DNA from: Chitinophagales bacterium
Lineage (GTDB): Bacteria; Bacteroidota; Bacteroidia; Chitinophagales; JADIYW01
Direction of reading: 5' to 3'
Length of the DNA: 64,000 bases
Assembly (NCBI GenBank): GCA_017984135.1
Contig: JAGNZZ010000007.1
Span: forward strand, 1-64,000
The notes beneath the pieces were generated by a model, which searched no databases, had not been told where the DNA came from, and was given only the letters and a program-made list of their open reading frames with translations. Both the position numbers and the translations under genes were made by a program. Positions 2,298 to 14,157 of the stretch are shown here, in pieces; positions within the stretch are counted from its first letter, which is position 1, and each line of letters starts with the position of its first letter.

Positions 2298-2305
2298 TAT
2301 TTTTG
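2298..2305 (+). promoter_or_regulatory. Bacteroidota -7 box driving the cobalamin riboswitch transcript
   Basis: TATTTTTG matches the Bacteroidota sigma-70 -7 consensus TAnnTTTG exactly. An ATTG at 2276-2279, 18 bases upstream, is a possible -33 element. Transcription would start just before the riboswitch aptamer. Confidence 0.55.
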
Positions 2306-2317
2306 TATTGAATTTTG

Positions 2318-2500
2318 GTTTTCGGTTTCAAATCCGAAATTAAAAGGGAAACAAGTGAAAGTCTTGTACAATCCCAGTTGCTGTAAACACACCAAGAATT
2401 TAAATGAGCTTGGTACTGAACGCTACAACCACTGAATTGTTAAATCAATTCGGGAAGGTTTCAGTAAAGTGTAAGTCAGAAGACCTGCCAATTTCAATCA
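2318..2500 (+). promoter_or_regulatory. Cobalamin (AdoCbl-type) riboswitch
   Basis: This 5' leader contains the conserved blocks of the B12 riboswitch in the right order: AAAAGGGAAACAAGTGAAA, then AATCCCAGTTGCTGTAA, then the B12 box GTCAGAAGACCTGCC at 2475-2489. The spacing between blocks suits the peripheral helices. It sits 45 bases before the start codon of a TonB-dependent receptor. Known riboswitches of this class lower expression of uptake genes when cobalamin is plentiful. No T-tract terminator follows the box, so control of translation initiation is more likely than termination. It occupies most of the 321-base gap between genes. Exact edges are approximate. Confidence 0.92.
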
Positions 2501-2533
2501 CTAAAAAGTGTTCTGAGGAAACATTTGTAGTAT

Positions 2534-4489
2534 ATGCAAAAGCGAATTGACTACATATTATTTATTTCAATGCTTGTACTATGTACAGCATTTTCGTATA
2601 GTCAACAAATTGATACTTTTCAACAATTAGATTCGGTGCTAATTATTAGTCAACCACTTGATAGATCAAATTCAAATAATAGCATTTCATCATTTCGTTT
2701 GAATTCTTCAACTATACATTTATTGCAAAATGATTTAGGAAATACACTGCAACATCTGTTTCCAGTACAAATTAATTCGTATGGTTTGGGAAATATATCC
2801 AGCATTTCAGTTAGAGGTGCAAATGATGACCAAACCAATATTTATTGGAACGGATTAAAAATAAATTCATTGACCTTAGGTGGTACAGATATTTCCTTGT
2901 TGCCGGCTTTGTTAGATGGAAATGATAGAATAAGTTTAGATAAAAACAATCATGCGATTGGTGGTGCTTTATCATTGCAAAATAAGGTAGATTGGAATAA
3001 TATAATAAAACTAAAACTTAGAAGTGATGTCAATAGTTTTGATGCCTATTATAATGCATTGACCGTTCAGTTTGGCAACAAAAAGATACAATGGAATTCT
3101 TCTTCCTTTTATAGAAATGCCCAACTTAATTTTTTATATAAAGATGTATATAAATTTGGCAGTCCAATAGATACTATGCGCCATAATCAATTAAAGGCAG
3201 CGGCAACTATTAATAGTTTTTATGTTAAGCTCAAAAAAAATCAGACTTTATCTTTTCATAATTGGTATCAACAAAAGAACAAAGAAGTTCCATCTATTAT
3301 GGGTTCTAATGAAATAAGTGGAAAATTTCAGCGTGACCAATCCGTAAAATCTATATTGAATTATGAAAATAAATTTAATAAAAAACAAATACAAATTTCC
3401 ATAGCACATCTGTATGATTTTTTACATTATTCAGATAAGCGTTTGCCAACAGATACCGTTTTATTTATTAATTCAAAATACAAAACACACCGCGTTTTTA
3501 ATAGCCTAAATTTTATAGACTCTTTAAAACACCAATTGTTACTTGAAGTAGGATTAACATATAATATAGATATTGCCAATGTGAAAGAATATACAAAAAA
3601 AATGATTGAACTTGTGGGAGATGTACATGGAAAATTAAGTTGGCAAAATTCTCATTTTTATACCTCTTTTCAATTGACACAGCCATTTACTTCCTATAAA
3701 TATTTAAGGCCACAGTTTGCTTTAAATGCTACTTATTTTACCAAAAATAAAAGGTATGCCTTATCTTTAATTTATGCAGATAAATATCACTTTGCAGACA
3801 TGAATGATCGATATTGGAATCCAGGAGGAAATCCTACATTACAGCCAGAAACAGCGTGGTCATTGAGTCTTGAGAATAATTTTAAAATTTTTTCATACAA
3901 ATCAATTGCCTTTCATGAGTTATTTGCTGCAATAAATGTGTATTATACAAAAATAAAAAATAATATTATTTGGACTCCAATGAATAGCGTGATATGGTCA
4001 CCAAAAAATATTAAAACAACACAGTTGTATGGATCCGAAATACAAGTAAAATATGCAGTTCAACAAGCTGAAAAGTTCAATTTTTTTATTAATACGATAT
4101 ACAGTTTTAATCGTGCTGAAATAGTAAAAGATATTAATAATTCCGGATTAAAAGGAAATTTTCTGCGATACAAACCACAACATACTTTTAAATCTAATTT
4201 CTATGTAGAACAAAAATATATTGGCTTAGGTGCAGATTATATGTTTGCTTCATTAAAATATACAGATGAAGAAAATTTTGATTTCTTTGCTTTAAAACCA
4301 TATCATTTACTAGATGCGTATATAACTTTTAAAGGTGCAATAAAAAAACATGAACTCCAATTTATGTTTAAAGTAAATAATATTACCAATACATCGTATG
4401 AATCCATTCGGTCGTATGCCCAACCACTACGAAATTATTCAATCACATTTATTTATAATTTTTCAAAATCTCAAAACAATTCACAATGA
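2534..4489 (+). CDS. btuB: TonB-dependent outer-membrane cobalamin receptor (BtuB-like)
   Basis: A 651-residue outer-membrane receptor. It has a signal peptide (first ~24 residues), a plug domain with ISSISVRGANDDQTNIYWNG near residues 85-110, and a long beta-barrel ending in an aromatic strand (YSITFIYNF). It lacks the N-terminal carboxypeptidase-regulatory domain of SusC proteins and is the size of BtuB. The cobalamin riboswitch directly upstream is the main evidence for the substrate; sequence alone gives only the receptor family. Its stop codon overlaps the start of the next gene (ATGA), indicating translational coupling with the lipoprotein. Confidence 0.88.
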   Translation: MQKRIDYILFISMLVLCTAFSYSQQIDTFQQLDSVLIISQPLDRSNSNNSISSFRLNSSTIHLLQNDLGNTLQHLFPVQINSYGLGNISSISVRGANDDQTNIYWNGLKINSLTLGGTDISLLPALLDGNDRISLDKNNHAIGGALSLQNKVDWNNIIKLKLRSDVNSFDAYYNALTVQFGNKKIQWNSSSFYRNAQLNFLYKDVYKFGSPIDTMRHNQLKAAATINSFYVKLKKNQTLSFHNWYQQKNKEVPSIMGSNEISGKFQRDQSVKSILNYENKFNKKQIQISIAHLYDFLHYSDKRLPTDTVLFINSKYKTHRVFNSLNFIDSLKHQLLLEVGLTYNIDIANVKEYTKKMIELVGDVHGKLSWQNSHFYTSFQLTQPFTSYKYLRPQFALNATYFTKNKRYALSLIYADKYHFADMNDRYWNPGGNPTLQPETAWSLSLENNFKIFSYKSIAFHELFAAINVYYTKIKNNIIWTPMNSVIWSPKNIKTTQLYGSEIQVKYAVQQAEKFNFFINTIYSFNRAEIVKDINNSGLKGNFLRYKPQHTFKSNFYVEQKYIGLGADYMFASLKYTDEENFDFFALKPYHLLDAYITFKGAIKKHELQFMFKVNNITNTSYESIRSYAQPLRNYSITFIYNFSKSQNNSQ

Positions 4490-5562
4490 ACAAAAAATTG
4501 CTTTTAATTGCACTTTCAATAAGTGTATTATTTTCATGTCAGAAAGAAGATAATAATTCAGTAGATAATTACATAGAACCAGGCTCTGCATTGGTGGTGA
4601 ATGAAGGCGGATTTACTAAGAATAATGGAAGTATTTCTTTTATTACTTTAAGTAAAACTGTAAAAAACAATATCTTTGAACAATCGAACAATGGGTTAAC
4701 TATTGGTGATGTAGTGCAGTCGTTTACACGTATAGGAAACCTTGGAATTATTTGTGTCAACAATTCTCAAAAGGTTAGTGTAGTTGATGTTCGAACATTT
4801 AAACAAGTAGCGGAAGTTACCAATGGAACAGATTATCCACGCTATGCAGTAGGCATCAATAATGACAAAGCGTACATTTCTAATGGAAGTGGTGCTGGAA
4901 AAATATTGGTATTAAATCTTAAAACATTTAATGTAGATAAAACCATTACAGTAGGAAATGGTCCTGAAGAAATGATCCTGTCAAATGGAAAAGTATTTGT
5001 AGCCAATAGTGGTGGTTTTGGTTCTGCAAATACCATTAGCGTAATTAACACTACAACAGATGCTGTTATAAATACCATTCCAGTAGCAGACAATCCAACA
5101 GAATTTGTACGTGATGCACAAGGTTATTTATGGGTTTTATGCAAAGGAAATGTCTTGTATTTACCGCCAACGTATGCTCCTGTAAGACAATCAGCAGCAA
5201 AATTGATTCGTATTAATCCAGCATTAAATAGTATTGATCGTGAAATTGAAATTATTCCAGCCACTTCAAATTATAGTTCTACAGATAATTTAGCAGTTAG
5301 TGGCGATGGAAGTAATCTTTACGTTTGCGTGGATAATAAAGTATATCAATTTCCTTACTCATCAACTACATTGCCTTCAACTGCATTCACTACTGGATAT
5401 TATTATGGTTTAGAGGTGCATCCATCAACCGGTGATGTTTGGGCTTTAGATGCAGGAAACTACAACGAAGCTGGAAAAGTGATAAGATACAATTCAACTG
5501 CAACCGCATTAGATACATTTACAGTAGGAATCATTCCGAATTCCGTTTATTTTAATTATTAA
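4486..5562 (+). CDS. Surface lipoprotein with YncE-like beta-propeller (BtuG-like)
   Basis: 358 residues. The signal peptide ends in a lipobox with Cys18 (VLFSC). The following QKED resembles the Bacteroidota lipoprotein export signal, so the protein probably faces outward on the outer membrane. The rest consists of repeated propeller blades of YVTN/YncE type (for example AYISNGSGAGKILVLNLKT and VFVANSGGFGSANTISVINT). In Bacteroides, BtuG is a surface beta-propeller lipoprotein that captures B12 for BtuB. Location, coupling to the receptor and the riboswitch all fit that role here. Orthology to BtuG is inferred, not demonstrated. Confidence 0.78.
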   Translation: MNKKLLLIALSISVLFSCQKEDNNSVDNYIEPGSALVVNEGGFTKNNGSISFITLSKTVKNNIFEQSNNGLTIGDVVQSFTRIGNLGIICVNNSQKVSVVDVRTFKQVAEVTNGTDYPRYAVGINNDKAYISNGSGAGKILVLNLKTFNVDKTITVGNGPEEMILSNGKVFVANSGGFGSANTISVINTTTDAVINTIPVADNPTEFVRDAQGYLWVLCKGNVLYLPPTYAPVRQSAAKLIRINPALNSIDREIEIIPATSNYSSTDNLAVSGDGSNLYVCVDNKVYQFPYSSTTLPSTAFTTGYYYGLEVHPSTGDVWALDAGNYNEAGKVIRYNSTATALDTFTVGIIPNSVYFNY

Positions 5563-5586
5563 TCTATAACTATTTAAATCCTAGTG

Positions 5587-5621
5587 AACTTGCATTGTTT
5601 TTACGATGCAAGTTTTTTTTT
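5587..5621 (+). terminator. Rho-independent terminator after the BtuB/BtuG-like operon
   Basis: A perfect 9-bp stem (AACTTGCAT 5587-5595 with ATGCAAGTT 5606-5614) and a 10-base loop, followed by a run of T. It closes the cobalamin operon. It also shows that an upstream ATG-like start for the next gene at 5595 would lie inside the terminator. Confidence 0.9.
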
Positions 5622-5654: not shown

Positions 5655-6962
5655 ATGAAAATATTGCATACTTTTGTTAAAACTGTAAAGTGTGTGAAAA
5701 AACGTTACATTCTTTTAATCTTATTTTTTTTATTCGTACTGTATGTAATATGGTGTAATATTAGTATTATTTACACACGTAAACCACCAGCTTCATCCAT
5801 TTTATTAGTGGATAATATTAAGTATCCAAAAGATTCGTTTTTAACAAATCAAGCTACTATTATTTGGCAAGGATTTTATCACGATTGGACATACAATCAT
5901 CGAGTAAATCGATTAGGAGATTGGGTACAACCTGTTTCAACGAATCAAGAAAATTTTTCATCCGTTTTTAATCATTCAGCAGCTTCTGGTATTGGAGCAG
6001 ATGTTTTGAGTTATAACTCATTTTTTACATTTTTAAACTCAACTAAAATAAAATCAATTTCATCAAATGTTAGTGCAATTGTTCGAGGAAGAGAAGCTAC
6101 CATCACCACCAAAATAATTACGGTTACTGGCATTATTCCCGAAACCATGAAGTCATATAACAATGCGACTATCTTGTTAAATGGATTTGATATTTATTGT
6201 AGAAGCACTTCTGATGGTAAAATTATGGGCACTGGAAAAGCAGATAAACTTTCAGATTTATTTATTGAATTAACACATTTAAAATGGAAAAGAGATACGT
6301 TTGAGTTTGATTTAATTTTAAAGTTAGGCGCTGATTGCGATTCACCAGAATGTTTAAATTTTGTTCCAGGTGATAATGAATGGTTTGACTATAACGTTAC
6401 AGTCGCGTACCAAATTATTGGCTATAATGATGGCGTACGAGTGAGCAATGCAAACATCAAAAATCAATATAAATGGTACAAACCACTTAAATCAAGACCA
6501 AGCATGGATCCCAATGAAATTTATCGAACACGAAAAATGCTGACTAATTTAAAAATAAAAGGCGCAATAGGCTACAATATTGGTATTCCTGGCATTAATA
6601 AAATAGACATTCATTTGCCAAAAGATGAAGGCGGATTTTTACGAAAAAGGTTGGAAACACCGCACATGCTATCTCTAAATATTGCTATTTCAGATTATAT
6701 TTATGAAGCAACAACTGGAATATGTACCTATAATGCAGATTTGTTTTTTAAAAATTGGAAACCTAATATGCCGATACTTTCTTATGGAAATAATGGACGT
6801 GCATATATCAATTTAGGCGTTAAATTACTTCAAATAAATGATGCGAATGCAATGATAGAAGACGAATCAGTGAAAGGTACAATTGATTGGCAAACCACTG
6901 AGTTTGAAGAACGAAATGCCAATGATCCAAATTCCATTAAATCGTTTATGTTTACTAAATAA
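5655..6962 (+). CDS. Unknown membrane-anchored protein
   Basis: Not recognised. The open frame extends back to 5595, but that start lies inside the terminator hairpin; ATG 5655 (MKILHTFVKTVK) is the likelier start, giving about 435 residues. A basic N-terminus is followed by one strong hydrophobic segment (ILLILFFLFVLYVIW). After it comes a long polar region rich in beta-type sequence, with no Cys pattern or catalytic motif I can name. The topology suggests a single-pass protein with a large periplasmic domain. It is separated by only 2 bases from the Nudix gene downstream, so the two are probably co-transcribed. Confidence 0.75.
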   Translation: MKILHTFVKTVKCVKKRYILLILFFLFVLYVIWCNISIIYTRKPPASSILLVDNIKYPKDSFLTNQATIIWQGFYHDWTYNHRVNRLGDWVQPVSTNQENFSSVFNHSAASGIGADVLSYNSFFTFLNSTKIKSISSNVSAIVRGREATITTKIITVTGIIPETMKSYNNATILLNGFDIYCRSTSDGKIMGTGKADKLSDLFIELTHLKWKRDTFEFDLILKLGADCDSPECLNFVPGDNEWFDYNVTVAYQIIGYNDGVRVSNANIKNQYKWYKPLKSRPSMDPNEIYRTRKMLTNLKIKGAIGYNIGIPGINKIDIHLPKDEGGFLRKRLETPHMLSLNIAISDYIYEATTGICTYNADLFFKNWKPNMPILSYGNNGRAYINLGVKLLQINDANAMIEDESVKGTIDWQTTEFEERNANDPNSIKSFMFTK

Positions 6963-6964
6963 AT

Positions 6965-7504
6965 ATGATAAATCAGCAGAAATATTGCAGCAACTGTGGA
7001 AAAGATGTCGTAATAAAATATACCGAAGGACGAGATAGATTTGTTTGCGAATATTGTAATACAATACACTATACTAACCCAAAAATTGTTGCAGGAGCAT
7101 TGTGTGTTTGGGAAGATAAAGTGTTGCTTTGCCGTCGTGCCATTGAGCCTCGTAGAGGTTATTGGAATTTACCAGCCGGATATTTAGAAGATTTCGAGAA
7201 AGTAGAAGACGGCGCTATTCGGGAAACATGGGAAGAAGCCGGCGCTACTATAAAAATTGAAAAAGTATTTACAATTTATAATTTACCACAAGCCAATCAA
7301 GTATATATTCATTTTTTAGCAATGTTAACAGATGGAATTATTCGAAACGGTGATGAAAGTATAGAATCTGCTTTGTTTTTAGAATCTGAAATTCCTTGGG
7401 ACGAAATGGCATTTACTTCTTCCGCTTTTGCATTGCGTAAATATTTTGAAGACAGGAAAAATGGTGTTTTTAATACACACTTAGGCGCATTTCCAGAAAA
7501 ATAA
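6965..7504 (+). CDS. Nudix hydrolase with N-terminal zinc ribbon
   Basis: 179 residues. An N-terminal zinc ribbon (YCSNCGKDV ... VCEYCNTIHY) supplies four cysteines. Next comes a Nudix domain with a complete Nudix box: GYLEDFEKVEDGAIRETWEE, followed by AGA. Nudix enzymes hydrolyse nucleoside diphosphates linked to another group; the zinc ribbon plus Nudix arrangement is seen in NudC-like and ADP-ribose pyrophosphatase-like members. The exact substrate is not clear. Start ATG 6965 lies 2 bases after the preceding stop, so it is probably in one operon with the unknown membrane protein. Confidence 0.88.
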   Translation: MINQQKYCSNCGKDVVIKYTEGRDRFVCEYCNTIHYTNPKIVAGALCVWEDKVLLCRRAIEPRRGYWNLPAGYLEDFEKVEDGAIRETWEEAGATIKIEKVFTIYNLPQANQVYIHFLAMLTDGIIRNGDESIESALFLESEIPWDEMAFTSSAFALRKYFEDRKNGVFNTHLGAFPEK

Positions 7505-7540: not shown

Positions 7541-8125
7541 ATGAAAACATCTACTACTAATAATAATCTTTTATTGGCAACCATTTTAATTATTACATCA
7601 CTAATATGGAGAGTACTTTCTAATCAATTTTCATTGTTTAATTTTACTCCAATTATCGCCATGTCATTGTTTGCCGGAGCGCGCATCCAAAACAATAAAA
7701 TGGCATTAGTCATTCCAATAATTACATTATTTATTTCTGATTTGGTCTTGGCATATCTAAATAATTTTAGTATTCTTCACAAAACTATACTGTTCACGTA
7801 TGGTTCATTAATACTGATAATTGCTTTAGGAAAATTATTGAAAAATGAAAAATTGAACGTAGCTAAAACAGCTTCATTTTCATTGCTTTCTTCCGCCATA
7901 TTTTTTATTTTAACCAATTTCGGCGTTTGGCTTTTTGGCAATTTATATACTTTAAATATAGATGGTCTAATCAAATGCTATTTAATGGCAATTCCATTTA
8001 ATAAATTTTCTTGGCTAGGTGATTTGGCTTTTTCCATTTCCTTTTTCATGATATATGAATGGCTAAGTGTTAAAAATTCTATATCTTCTACTGAATTTGC
8101 TTTGGAAAAAAATAAGCTTAAGTAA
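7541..8125 (+). CDS. DUF6580-type integral membrane protein
   Basis: 194 residues with about five or six hydrophobic segments. The N-terminal part (SLIWRVLSNQFSLFNFTPI then AMSLFAGARI) resembles the DUF6580 family common in Bacteroidota. Such proteins look like small permease subunits or substrate-binding membrane components, but no function is established. The C-terminal tail is polar. It stands alone between the Nudix gene and glmM with its own apparent promoter. The family name is from memory of the N-terminal pattern. Confidence 0.75.
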   Translation: MKTSTTNNNLLLATILIITSLIWRVLSNQFSLFNFTPIIAMSLFAGARIQNNKMALVIPIITLFISDLVLAYLNNFSILHKTILFTYGSLILIIALGKLLKNEKLNVAKTASFSLLSSAIFFILTNFGVWLFGNLYTLNIDGLIKCYLMAIPFNKFSWLGDLAFSISFFMIYEWLSVKNSISSTEFALEKNKLK

Positions 8126-8240: not shown

Positions 8241-9617
8241 GTGTCATTAATAAAATCAATATCAGGCATACGCGGAACAATTGGTGGTAAATCAGGAAAT
8301 GGATTAACACCTATTGATATTGCCAATTTTACCTTAGCTTTTGCTAGTATTTTAAAAGCCAAAGACGGAAAAAAAATTGTAGTAGGACGAGATGCTCGGC
8401 TTTCTGGAGAAATGGTGCATCATATTGTTGTAGGCAATCTAATTAGCATTGGAATGGACGTCGTAGATTTGGGATTAGCCACCACGCCAACCGTAGAAAT
8501 GGCAGTAGTTGCAGAAGAAGCAGATGGCGGAATTATTATCACCGCATCACACAATCCAAAACAATGGAATGCACTTAAATTATTAAACCATAAAGGCGAA
8601 TTTATATCCGATAAAATTGGACGCGAAGTATTGAAGAAAGCCACTTCTAAATTCGATTTTGCAGAAGTTGATAAATTAGGTCAAGTTACCAAAAAAGACT
8701 ATCTCGATTTTCATATTGAACAAATTTTGAAGATTCCTTACGTGAACATAAATGCCATTAAGGAAAAAAAAATCAAAGTAGTAGTTGATGCAGTGAATAG
8801 TGTTGGTGGAATTGCCGTTCCTAAGTTATTAAATGCATTGGGTGTGGAAACTGTATTTGAATTATATTGCGAACCAAATGGAAAGTTTGCTCACAATCCG
8901 GAACCATTACCAGAACATATTTCTGCCTTATCTTCCGAAGTAAAACAACGCAAAGCAGATCTTGGAATTGCAGTGGATCCAGATGTAGATAGATTAGCAT
9001 TAGTAGATGAAAAAGGAACTCCATTTGGAGAAGAATATACATTAGTTGCTGTTGCTGATTATGTTTTGCAACACAAAAAAGGAAATACTGTTTCTAATTT
9101 ATCTTCTACAAAAGCATTGCGTGATATAAGTCAGAAACACGGTGTGCAATACAATGCTTCTGCAGTTGGTGAAGTAAATGTAGTAGAAAAAATGAAAGAA
9201 ACAAATGCCGTGATTGGAGGTGAAGGAAATGGTGGAATTATTTTACCAGAATTACATTATGGACGCGATGCATTAGTAGGAATTGCTTTATTTTTATCAC
9301 ACTTAGCAACTACAAAAAAAAGCGTGCATGCCATACGTGCTCAATATCCAAATTACGTAATATCTAAAAATAAAATTCAATTAGAAGATAGCATGAATTT
9401 GCAAGATATCATTGAAAAAGTTAAAGATAAATACAAGCAATATCCACATAACACCATTGACGGATTGCGCATCGATATTGATGATGATTGGGTACATCTT
9501 CGCGGTTCCAATACAGAACCTATTATTCGTATTTATGCAGAAAGTTCAACCGAACAAACAGCCAATGCCATCGCACAAAAAATGATGAAAGATATAACAG
9601 CTATTTTGAAAGCTTAA
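8241..9617 (+). CDS. glmM: Phosphoglucosamine mutase
   Basis: 458 residues, start codon GTG. It converts glucosamine-6-phosphate to glucosamine-1-phosphate for peptidoglycan and LPS synthesis. The active-site serine loop ITASHNPKQWN (Ser103), the Mg-binding loop DPDVDRLAL, the sugar-binding GGEGNGG segment and the C-terminal phosphate-binding RGSNTEPIIRIYAES are all present. Length is normal for the alpha-D-phosphohexomutase superfamily. A phosphomannomutase activity cannot be excluded on sequence alone. It is followed by holA in the same direction. Confidence 0.9.
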   Translation: MSLIKSISGIRGTIGGKSGNGLTPIDIANFTLAFASILKAKDGKKIVVGRDARLSGEMVHHIVVGNLISIGMDVVDLGLATTPTVEMAVVAEEADGGIIITASHNPKQWNALKLLNHKGEFISDKIGREVLKKATSKFDFAEVDKLGQVTKKDYLDFHIEQILKIPYVNINAIKEKKIKVVVDAVNSVGGIAVPKLLNALGVETVFELYCEPNGKFAHNPEPLPEHISALSSEVKQRKADLGIAVDPDVDRLALVDEKGTPFGEEYTLVAVADYVLQHKKGNTVSNLSSTKALRDISQKHGVQYNASAVGEVNVVEKMKETNAVIGGEGNGGIILPELHYGRDALVGIALFLSHLATTKKSVHAIRAQYPNYVISKNKIQLEDSMNLQDIIEKVKDKYKQYPHNTIDGLRIDIDDDWVHLRGSNTEPIIRIYAESSTEQTANAIAQKMMKDITAILKA

Positions 9618-12792: not shown

Positions 12793-14157
12793 ATGTTAAA
12801 CACTAAAAAATATAGTGATCTCCAGCATCCCAATTCTTTCCTTTTTTTTATAAATAATCTACTACAAATTCGTAATGATAAAATTGATTTTTTCATAAAA
12901 CAAAAAGAAAAACTTGGAGATATTTATAAATTAGAAATTCCAAATAGGAAAGTAGTAGTTGTCACTCAACCGGAATGGATAAAGTATATATTAGTGGACA
13001 ATAATAAAAATTATACAAAGAGCTTTGCTTATGATGCGATTAAATTATTTTTAGGAAATGGATTATTAAGTAGTGAAGGTGAATTTTGGAAACGTCAACG
13101 CCGCATGGCACAACCGGCTTTTCATAAAGAAAAATTGGCTTTCATGTTTCAAAATATGGTCAATCAAACACAACATTGTGTGGATGAATTATCTCTATTA
13201 GCAGATACAAAACAGACAATTCATTTATCCAATGTGTTGTATAAACTAACTTTAGATATTGTAAATTCTACATTGTTTTATAATGAAGTAGCAAATACCA
13301 CCAATCAAATATTTAAGCTGGTTTCAAAAGGAAATGAATACATTTCAAAACGAGTAAATAGTCCGATTCAATTACCCGATTGGATGCCAACGCCAAATAG
13401 ATTGACAGAAAATGCAATTTTAAGAGCAATGGATGATGTATTTTTTGATGTAATTGAACGAAGAAAAAATAAAAATGAAATTCATCACGATTTATTGTCT
13501 ATGCTCATGGAAGCACGTGACGAAGAAACCGATGAAGGAATGAGCAATCGCCAATTGCGGGATGAGATTTTAACCATCTTTATTGCCGGTCACGAAACCA
13601 CACAAATTGCACTTTCATGGATATTTTATTTGTTGACCCAAAATCCAGATAAAAAAGCTATTTTACTACAAGAAATTGATTCAGTATTAAAAGGGCAACC
13701 ACCTACAATACAGAATATTCGTAGTCTGCATTATTTAAAACAAGTAATTGATGAAGCCATGCGTTGTTTTCCACCAGCTTGGATTATGGGTAGAAAAACA
13801 ATTCATACCGACGTAATAAACGGCTATGAAATTCCTCCAAATACAAATGTAATTATGCCAATTTATGTGGTTCATCATGACCCACAAATTTGGGAAAACC
13901 CTAATGAATTTATTCCAGAACGTTTTTCATTTGATAATTTAAAAGAGAAACATAAATTTGCTTACTTTCCTTTTGGAGGTGGTCCAAGGTTATGTATTGG
14001 AAATAATTTTGCCATTCAAGAAATGCAAATTGCATTATGCATGTTCCTTCAAAAATTTGATATTATAGTGGATAAGAACTTTAAACCAGAATTAGATCCT
14101 TTAGTAACTTTACGACCTAAGCATGCACTGTACGCAACTATTCAAAAACGAAATTAA
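12793..14157 (+). CDS. Cytochrome P450 (second paralogue)
   Basis: 454 residues with all core P450 motifs: AGHETTQIALSW (I helix), ExxR in IDEAMRCFPP, FIPERFSF, and the haem loop FPFGGGPRLCIG with Cys401. Long stretches match the P450 at 884 (for example DLLSMLMEARDEETDEGMS against DLVSMLIEARDADTHEGMS), so the two are duplicates that have diverged. No redox partner gene is adjacent. It is followed closely by a thioredoxin-like gene, but functional linkage is not evident. Confidence 0.95.
   Translation: MLNTKKYSDLQHPNSFLFFINNLLQIRNDKIDFFIKQKEKLGDIYKLEIPNRKVVVVTQPEWIKYILVDNNKNYTKSFAYDAIKLFLGNGLLSSEGEFWKRQRRMAQPAFHKEKLAFMFQNMVNQTQHCVDELSLLADTKQTIHLSNVLYKLTLDIVNSTLFYNEVANTTNQIFKLVSKGNEYISKRVNSPIQLPDWMPTPNRLTENAILRAMDDVFFDVIERRKNKNEIHHDLLSMLMEARDEETDEGMSNRQLRDEILTIFIAGHETTQIALSWIFYLLTQNPDKKAILLQEIDSVLKGQPPTIQNIRSLHYLKQVIDEAMRCFPPAWIMGRKTIHTDVINGYEIPPNTNVIMPIYVVHHDPQIWENPNEFIPERFSFDNLKEKHKFAYFPFGGGPRLCIGNNFAIQEMQIALCMFLQKFDIIVDKNFKPELDPLVTLRPKHALYATIQKRN

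Follow-up and report, generated by a model that had tools for sequence, protein, structure and literature searches.

We analyzed a 64,000-nucleotide stretch of DNA (the window; positions 1 to 64,000 of the forward strand of contig JAGNZZ010000007.1, assembly GCA_017984135.1) from a member of the Chitinophagales in the phylum Bacteroidota, and propose that it encodes a two-unit system for scavenging cobalamin (vitamin B12). The first unit is a riboswitch-controlled gene pair for a BtuB-like receptor and a BtuG-like lipoprotein, which would capture cobalamin from outside the cell. The second centers on a small membrane protein of the DUF6580 family (PF20221), encoded about 2 kb 3' of btuG, which would act as a solitary, BtuM-like inner-membrane cobalamin importer in place of BtuCDF. 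We regard this two-unit reading as probable. The features of the locus are as follows:

2277–2305, + strand: promoter-like pair, TTG (2277–2279) and TATTTTTG (2298–2305) with 18-base spacing, spotted by eye
2298–2506, + strand: cobalamin riboswitch aptamer RF00174 (covariance model positions 1–189, 95.8 bits, E 1.3e-22)
2534–4489, + strand: btuB-like TonB-dependent receptor, 651 amino acids (8p97_A, BtuB3, 2.9e-26)
4486–5562, + strand: btuG-like lipoprotein, 358 amino acids, DUF5074 (PF16819), lipid Cys18 followed by QKED (from homology and model)
5586–5615, + strand: intrinsic terminator 3' of btuG (13 pairs, then a T run; folding z −5.79)
5655–6962, + strand: open reading frame of 435 amino acids, ATG at 5655, matching neither Pfam nor NCBIfam; the first gene past the terminator
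6965–7504, + strand: NUDIX hydrolase, 179 amino acids (PF00293, 6.2e-14)
7541–8125, + strand: DUF6580 protein (PF20221), 194 amino acids, six helices, predicted fold like BtuM and other S-components of energy-coupling factor (ECF) transporters; proposed inner-membrane cobalamin importer
8241–9617, + strand: GlmM-like gene, next in the conserved neighborhood (from gene order; a gene we take to be GlmM)

The genome that carries the window (2.63 Mb in 71 contigs, completeness 100) encodes five proteins with a B12-binding domain: methylmalonyl-CoA mutase, two MetH-like proteins, an IcmF-like protein and a B12 radical-SAM protein. We searched the whole genome for a FecCD/BtuC permease and found none, although 13 of 14 control genomes gave a match in the same search. 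No EcfT was found in this genome either, and CbiC, our marker for corrin-ring synthesis, was found in none of 40 genomes (this one and 39 relatives). Because B12 enzymes and BtuBG are present while FecCD, CbiC and EcfT were not found, the organism appears to need cobalamin, not to build the ring itself and to capture cobalamin from outside, all without the usual inner-membrane pump. An initial, sequence-only reading of the window had remarked that no BtuCDF and no cobalamin synthesis genes lie near the locus. The former proved an understatement, given the lack of a FecCD match genome-wide, and the latter agrees with the negative CbiC search.

The DUF6580 protein matches its family model with 143.5 bits (gathering threshold 27). 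Its predicted structure, modeled from the window sequence and 72 relatives, is a six-helix bundle of high confidence (predicted local distance difference test score, pLDDT, 91.8; predicted template modeling score, pTM, 0.86). Foldseek placed BtuM first (probability 1.00), with an E-value, 0.11, that is weak alone. A structural re-alignment, which re-ranks only Foldseek's own list, returned ECF S-components in all of its first 17 rows (Z 9.2–15.1), with 4huq_S counted among them as what we take to be an S-component; the next row, an unrelated protein, scored 6.3. Rows 1 and 2 were BtuM with cyanocobalamin or hydroxycobalamin (Z 15.1 and 14.9, root-mean-square deviation 3.4–3.5 over 170–171 residues; the top match, 8c7p, gave 3.4 over 171), and two other S-components also exceeded Z 13 (13.4 and 13.3). 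The tool's own documentation notes that helical bundles below about Z 13 may share a common arrangement, and that 14 was the typical best Z among five mostly helical models. For this predicted fold, the weight of the match lies in the uniformity of the 17 rows and the drop to 6.3. Querying PDB sequences with the single DUF6580 sequence retrieved only ATP-citrate lyase (E 0.83–2.2), which we took as chance.

Across 73 DUF6580 sequences, nine residues were invariant (R24, D67, F121, N126, V129, W130, Y136, G142 and P152), and Cys146, close to where helix 6 begins, was present in 64 (Ser in seven, Ala in two). Loop 3 had no column with at least 70% Cys in either alignment (A1, A2). Each protein has few lysines and arginines in loops 1, 3 and 5 (0.01, 0.10 and 0.44 on average) but many in loops 2 and 4 (1.99 and 2.34), a distribution that puts loops 1, 3 and 5 on the probable periplasmic side. 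BtuM binds its ligand on that same side, according to passages of PMC6072759.

Within the 40 genomes, DUF6580 occurred in 31 and a full-length FecCD permease (6.5e-70 or better) in eight, nine others having weak matches only. Six of the nine genomes without DUF6580 had a full-length FecCD, vs two of the 31 with it (p 5e-4, phylogeny ignored), and in four of these six FecCD-only relatives (G019, G025, G030, G038) FecCD lay no more than about 6 kb from a cobalamin riboswitch. We extended the comparison to 392 Bacteroidota genomes of at least 95 completeness, in which FecCD matches were classed as strong (2.3e-55 or better) or weak (1.2e-14 or worse). DUF6580 was found in 166 (including G098, where the match falls below the cut-off) and FecCD in 280 (250 strong, 30 weak only). 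The two were nearly complementary: 140 genomes had DUF6580 only, 224 strong FecCD only, 26 both and two neither (G172, G292), an exclusion with p 3.5e-76 by Fisher's test with shared ancestry ignored. By eye, each of the families f20, f23, f25, f35 and f44 contained both DUF6580-only and FecCD-only genomes. A cobalamin riboswitch was present in 375 of the 392, so demand for cobalamin is near-constant across the set while the pump varies. EcfT occurred in 81 of the 392 genomes and in only 11 of the 166 with DUF6580. Three of the EcfT matches (G156:C12, G279:C72 and G208:C6) each contain one in-frame TGA, reflecting either pseudogenes or TGA recoding in those lineages.

The genomic context of DUF6580 points to cobalamin as well. 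We scanned named genomes with the family profile and inspected the best 80 loci, which came from many phyla, searching for riboswitch cores with a regular expression that recovered 36 of 42 known sites and gave no match in 784 kb of reversed control sequence. Because six of the 42 were missed, the resulting counts are low estimates. (A looser expression, with four matches in the reversed control, was used for distances only and not for the phylum-wide count of 14 of 38 given below.) A riboswitch core was found in 25 of the 80 loci, always on the DUF6580 strand, 17 times upstream and eight times downstream. Same-strand neighbors included BtuB or another TonB-dependent receptor (25 loci), CobO (nine), BtuG (eight, and one further on the opposite strand), a Dph6-like protein (eight), MetH (seven), a BtuF-like protein (six) and CobU (one); leaving Dph6 uncounted, 35 loci had at least one such neighbor. 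The operons of L186 and L198 read riboswitch–BtuG–BtuB–DUF6580–MetH, with about 10 to 16 bases separating DUF6580 from each of its two neighbors, and L212 has the same components plus an extra open reading frame between BtuB and DUF6580. MetH was identified by family scan in L186 and by a near-identical opening in L198 and L212; the BtuG of L186 is weak by sequence (PDB BtuG1, 1e-6). At seven loci (L151, L177, L185, L197, G012, G156 and G289) the riboswitch lies directly 5' of DUF6580.

A second sample, drawn from the 392 genomes by stepping down the listed DUF6580 matches, comprised 38 loci. A riboswitch core lay within 6 kb in 14 of these (12 upstream on the same strand, two on the opposite strand), and 18 had a B12-type neighbor, including BtuB 13 times on the same strand and twice on the opposite one. 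In a matched control, 8 of 20 DUF6580 loci had a riboswitch core, vs 0 of 20 stretches shifted by 60–100 kb in the same genomes. One shifted stretch in the 20 had a B12-type neighbor, a BtuG-like propeller, and BtuG-type neighbors are therefore a soft signal.

Two kinds of neighbor among the best 80 loci merit separate mention. The BtuF-like periplasmic binding proteins, counted on the DUF6580 strand, include those of L193, L147 and L071; the last was recognized by eye without an NCBIfam match, in a genome (G031) that has no FecCD match, and this protein may supply a transporter outside the ABC class. The Dph6-like ATP pyrophosphatase adjoins DUF6580 in L049 (3195–4037, PF01902, 3e-35), L167 and L193.

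Within the genus (G000–G007), the order riboswitch–BtuB–BtuG–(435-residue frame)–NUDIX–DUF6580–GlmM recurs with exceptions. The 435-residue frame separates BtuG from NUDIX in the window and in G003–G006 and was not seen in G001, G002 or G007; the G004 contig ends after NUDIX, its DUF6580 lying on another contig. In G001, gaps of only 28 and 46 bases occur in the run riboswitch–BtuB–BtuG–NUDIX–DUF6580, and no obvious terminator was seen by eye between BtuG and NUDIX. The DUF6580–GlmM order was also found in two Chitinophagales metagenome-assembled genomes (L139, L148), and on gene order the window would thus probably fall in that lineage. In G007 (L045) the riboswitch, BtuB and DUF6580 are kept and no BtuG frame was seen in the locus.

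The capture unit itself is well supported as an ordinary riboswitch-controlled BtuB and BtuG operon. The riboswitch exceeds its gathering threshold of 31.5 bits threefold and is the sole match above gathering in the window; the btuB-like frame begins 27 bases past the aptamer's end and shares four overlapping bases with the btuG-like frame, and the stable terminator follows. The promoter-like pair presumably matches the Bacteroidota consensus, and these elements together would delimit the unit. The sequence-only reading had already joined the riboswitch, two coupled genes and terminator in this way and had called the result a complete uptake unit. The grouping holds, but the completeness does not, because no part of the btuB–btuG unit spans the inner membrane.

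Both proteins resemble B12 proteins most closely, as had been anticipated from the letters alone. Against PDB sequences, the receptor matched chains of Bacteroides thetaiotaomicron BtuB3 (8p97_A) and BtuB2 (8bmx_C, 7.3e-25); it scored 46.9 bits (1.5e-12) against TIGR01779, the E. coli-type BtuB equivalog, whose curated cut-off of 599.7 it did not reach, and its Plug domain (7.4e-5) fell slightly under the cut-off. The lipoprotein, the only DUF5074 protein found in its genome (1.8e-30), matched nine BtuG chain sequences (from 1e-38, for 8bmx_D, to 1.6e-34) and BtuG1 chains at about 1e-20, with 30.2% identity to BtuG2 over 334 positions. Its Cys18 is followed by QKEDNN, within which the earlier reading had picked out QKED, a motif that presumably resembles the Bacteroidota surface-export signal. 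Although its model was built from five sequences only (mean pLDDT 76.1, with residues 1–29 and 66–72 poor), the top 11 rows of the structural comparison were all BtuG (Z 34.0–36.7, next row 30.3), in line with the propeller fold named in the earlier reading; structure 3dsm was scored as BtuG following passages of PMC6143338.

Five aromatic residues of the BtuG2 pocket (W194, Y239, W272, Y316 and Y335, as given in passages of PMC10404256) correspond to G, V, Y, Y and Y in the lipoprotein, so that two are identical, one is replaced by another aromatic and two, W194 and Y239, are not kept. With the pocket partly kept, the lipoprotein is likely to bind cobalamin, but its affinity may differ from that of BtuG2. 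The loss of two pocket aromatics, and the receptor's score below the E. coli-type cut-off, could be read to mean that the pair imports another substrate such as haem or a siderophore. We consider this very improbable, as a cobalamin riboswitch ends 27 bases ahead of the start codon and each of the two proteins has a B12 protein as its best PDB match; these searches gave no support to a siderophore or haem system.

The B. thetaiotaomicron BtuB2G2 and BtuB3G3 systems, as described in passages of PMC10404256 and PMC6143338, share with this locus a riboswitch-linked btuB adjoining btuG, the BtuG propeller and the lipoprotein signal. The locus described here differs in being a two-gene unit, in belonging to a genome in which no FecCD permease was found, in its 30% identity and in the loss of W194 and Y239. 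That BtuG occurs outside gut Bacteroides, as had been suggested at the outset, is borne out by its presence here. The extension within Bacteroidota is nevertheless modest, because a survey of gut strains, in passages of PMC6143338, had earlier found btuG to be confined to Bacteroidetes and associated with btuB. We considered BtuG as the main novelty of the window and ruled it out on the strength of that published linkage.

The inner-membrane step is the more important part of these findings, and DUF6580 admits other explanations. The CblT transporters of Firmicutes likewise combine an S-component-type fold with riboswitch control, and DUF6580 might, in a CblT-like manner, import alpha-ribazole, a lower-ligand base or cobinamide, intact cobalamin then entering by an unrecognized route. 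Some hosts do seem to handle partial corrinoids, since CobU lies two genes past DUF6580 in L049 and L207 has a CobO-type adenosyltransferase ahead of DUF6580. A transporter of alpha-ribazole would be no substitute for BtuC, yet DUF6580 and full-length FecCD are complementary, with at least one of them in 390 of the 392 genomes, and DUF6580 stands directly 5' of MetH in L186, L198 and L212; we therefore judge this explanation unlikely.

We give little credence to the idea that DUF6580 is a generic membrane protein hitch-hiking beside btuB, with cobalamin entering through, for example, a BacA/SbmA-like ATP-binding cassette (ABC) protein. It draws on the many DUF6580 loci without a riboswitch core nearby and on mycobacterial BacA, which moves cobalamin according to passages of PMC10960864. 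A passenger of btuB would hardly be expected directly behind a riboswitch with no btuB between them, as seen in several lineages, nor to recur with differing B12 neighbors; moreover, the best fold match of DUF6580 is a cobalamin-bound protein, and its complementarity with FecCD is near-complete.

Several observations nonetheless weigh against DUF6580 being a cobalamin importer. Both binding and transport by DUF6580 are what we infer from fold, distribution and context; alpha-ribazole or some other part of a corrinoid may be the substrate instead, and another importer of cobalamin may exist. The BtuM match of Z 15.1 barely exceeds the chance level that the tool's note gives for helical bundles, and searching PDB sequences with the DUF6580 profile gave no match up to E 10 and so detected no similarity to BtuM. 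The cysteine lies in helix 6 rather than in loop 3, and nine of 73 members lack it. In the window, the terminator and the 435-residue frame separate btuG from NUDIX–DUF6580, leaving riboswitch control of DUF6580 unclear. A riboswitch core was absent from the flanks of 55 of the best 80 loci, including all those titled Levybacteria or other Patescibacteria, and from 24 of the 38 phylum loci, in which BtuG-like neighbors were as frequent on the opposite strand as on the same one (five each) and two BtuB-like neighbors were on the opposite strand. Finally, 26 of the 392 genomes have both families, FecCD also serves siderophores, and the Fisher values ignore phylogeny.

Taking DUF6580 as the cobalamin importer, we envisage the following route. 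At low cobalamin, the riboswitch would permit expression of btuB and btuG. By homology to B. thetaiotaomicron BtuBG, surface-exposed BtuG would catch cobalamin and pass it to BtuB, which would move it into the periplasm with energy from TonB. DUF6580 would then provide the inner-membrane step in a BtuM-like manner without an ECF module, binding periplasmic cobalamin in a putative pocket formed by the conserved loops 1, 3 and 5 together with the beginning of helix 6. Cys146 is the candidate cobalt ligand, by analogy with Cys80 of BtuM although at another position, its place in the pocket being read from the order of the helices. Transport would need no ECF ATPase and might run downhill, the cell's B12 enzymes trapping the cobalamin, and the imported cofactor would be used by MetH and methylmalonyl-CoA mutase. 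For BtuM, its authors suggest toppling and facilitated diffusion (passages of PMC6072759).

The closest known counterpart is BtuM of Thiobacillus denitrificans, which, in passages of PMC6072759, shares with DUF6580 a small six-helix ECF-S fold, a near-conserved cysteine and linkage to btuB or cobalamin genes. As with BtuM, the hosts of DUF6580 mostly lack an ECF module, EcfT being absent from 155 of the 166 genomes as well as from the genome studied here. Unlike BtuM, DUF6580 has no detectable sequence similarity to that family and carries its cysteine where helix 6 begins instead of in loop 3 (Cys80). DUF6580 was sampled in Bacteroidota and further phyla; for BtuM, the same passages report mainly Proteobacteria. 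On the tests made, DUF6580 shares the fold and solitary occurrence of BtuM and neither its sequence homology nor its loop-3 cysteine, and is thus not a member of the BtuM family. The S-components FolT, ThiT, BioY and PanT have the fold in common with DUF6580 (Z 9.2–13.4) and mostly need the ECF module, while most sampled DUF6580 hosts have no EcfT. BtuCDF has the same proposed role but is an unrelated ABC transporter, largely mutually exclusive with DUF6580. We found no mention of DUF6580 in the open-licence PMC literature, nor anything there combining a solitary S-component, vitamin B12 and a riboswitch.

Further features of the genome touch on cobalamin. The two MetH-like frames are separate (L035, L036; G000:C44, C59), and both lack a homocysteine domain in frame, which could mean that MetH is split or duplicated, or could stem from the assembly. 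A second RF00174 riboswitch (L002 1501–1694, − strand, G000:C43, 92 bits) lies about 150 bases 5' of a 410-residue open reading frame (L002 119–1351, − strand) with a type IX secretion tail (PF18962, 5.2e-11). It would be unusual for B12 to control a secreted protein; the other seven genomes of the genus have one cobalamin riboswitch each, and we saw no relative with a riboswitch ahead of the same gene. Two cytochrome P450 genes lie near the capture unit, at 884–2212 (PF00067, 1.1e-76) and 12793–14157 (identified by eye).

Beyond this organism, we lean towards a wider proposal: that DUF6580 proteins are widespread solitary importers of cobalamin with an S-component fold and a helix-6 cysteine ligand, replacing BtuCDF without an ECF module in much of Bacteroidota and also in other phyla. 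Among the best 80 loci, the record titles name Omnitrophota, Planctomycetota, Verrucomicrobia, relatives of Bdellovibrio and Patescibacteria. The helix-6 site is unlike that of BtuM, and cysteine ligation would therefore have arisen or moved independently. A soil study found, in passages of PMC11287211, that corrinoid uptake genes could not be predicted reliably, the annotation of transporters being too limited. If DUF6580 is the importer, 140 of the 392 sampled Bacteroidota genomes would gain their missing step, B12 uptake could be predicted from sequence for many environmental lineages, and there would be a second solitary transporter with the S-component fold in which to study how such proteins function without an ATPase.

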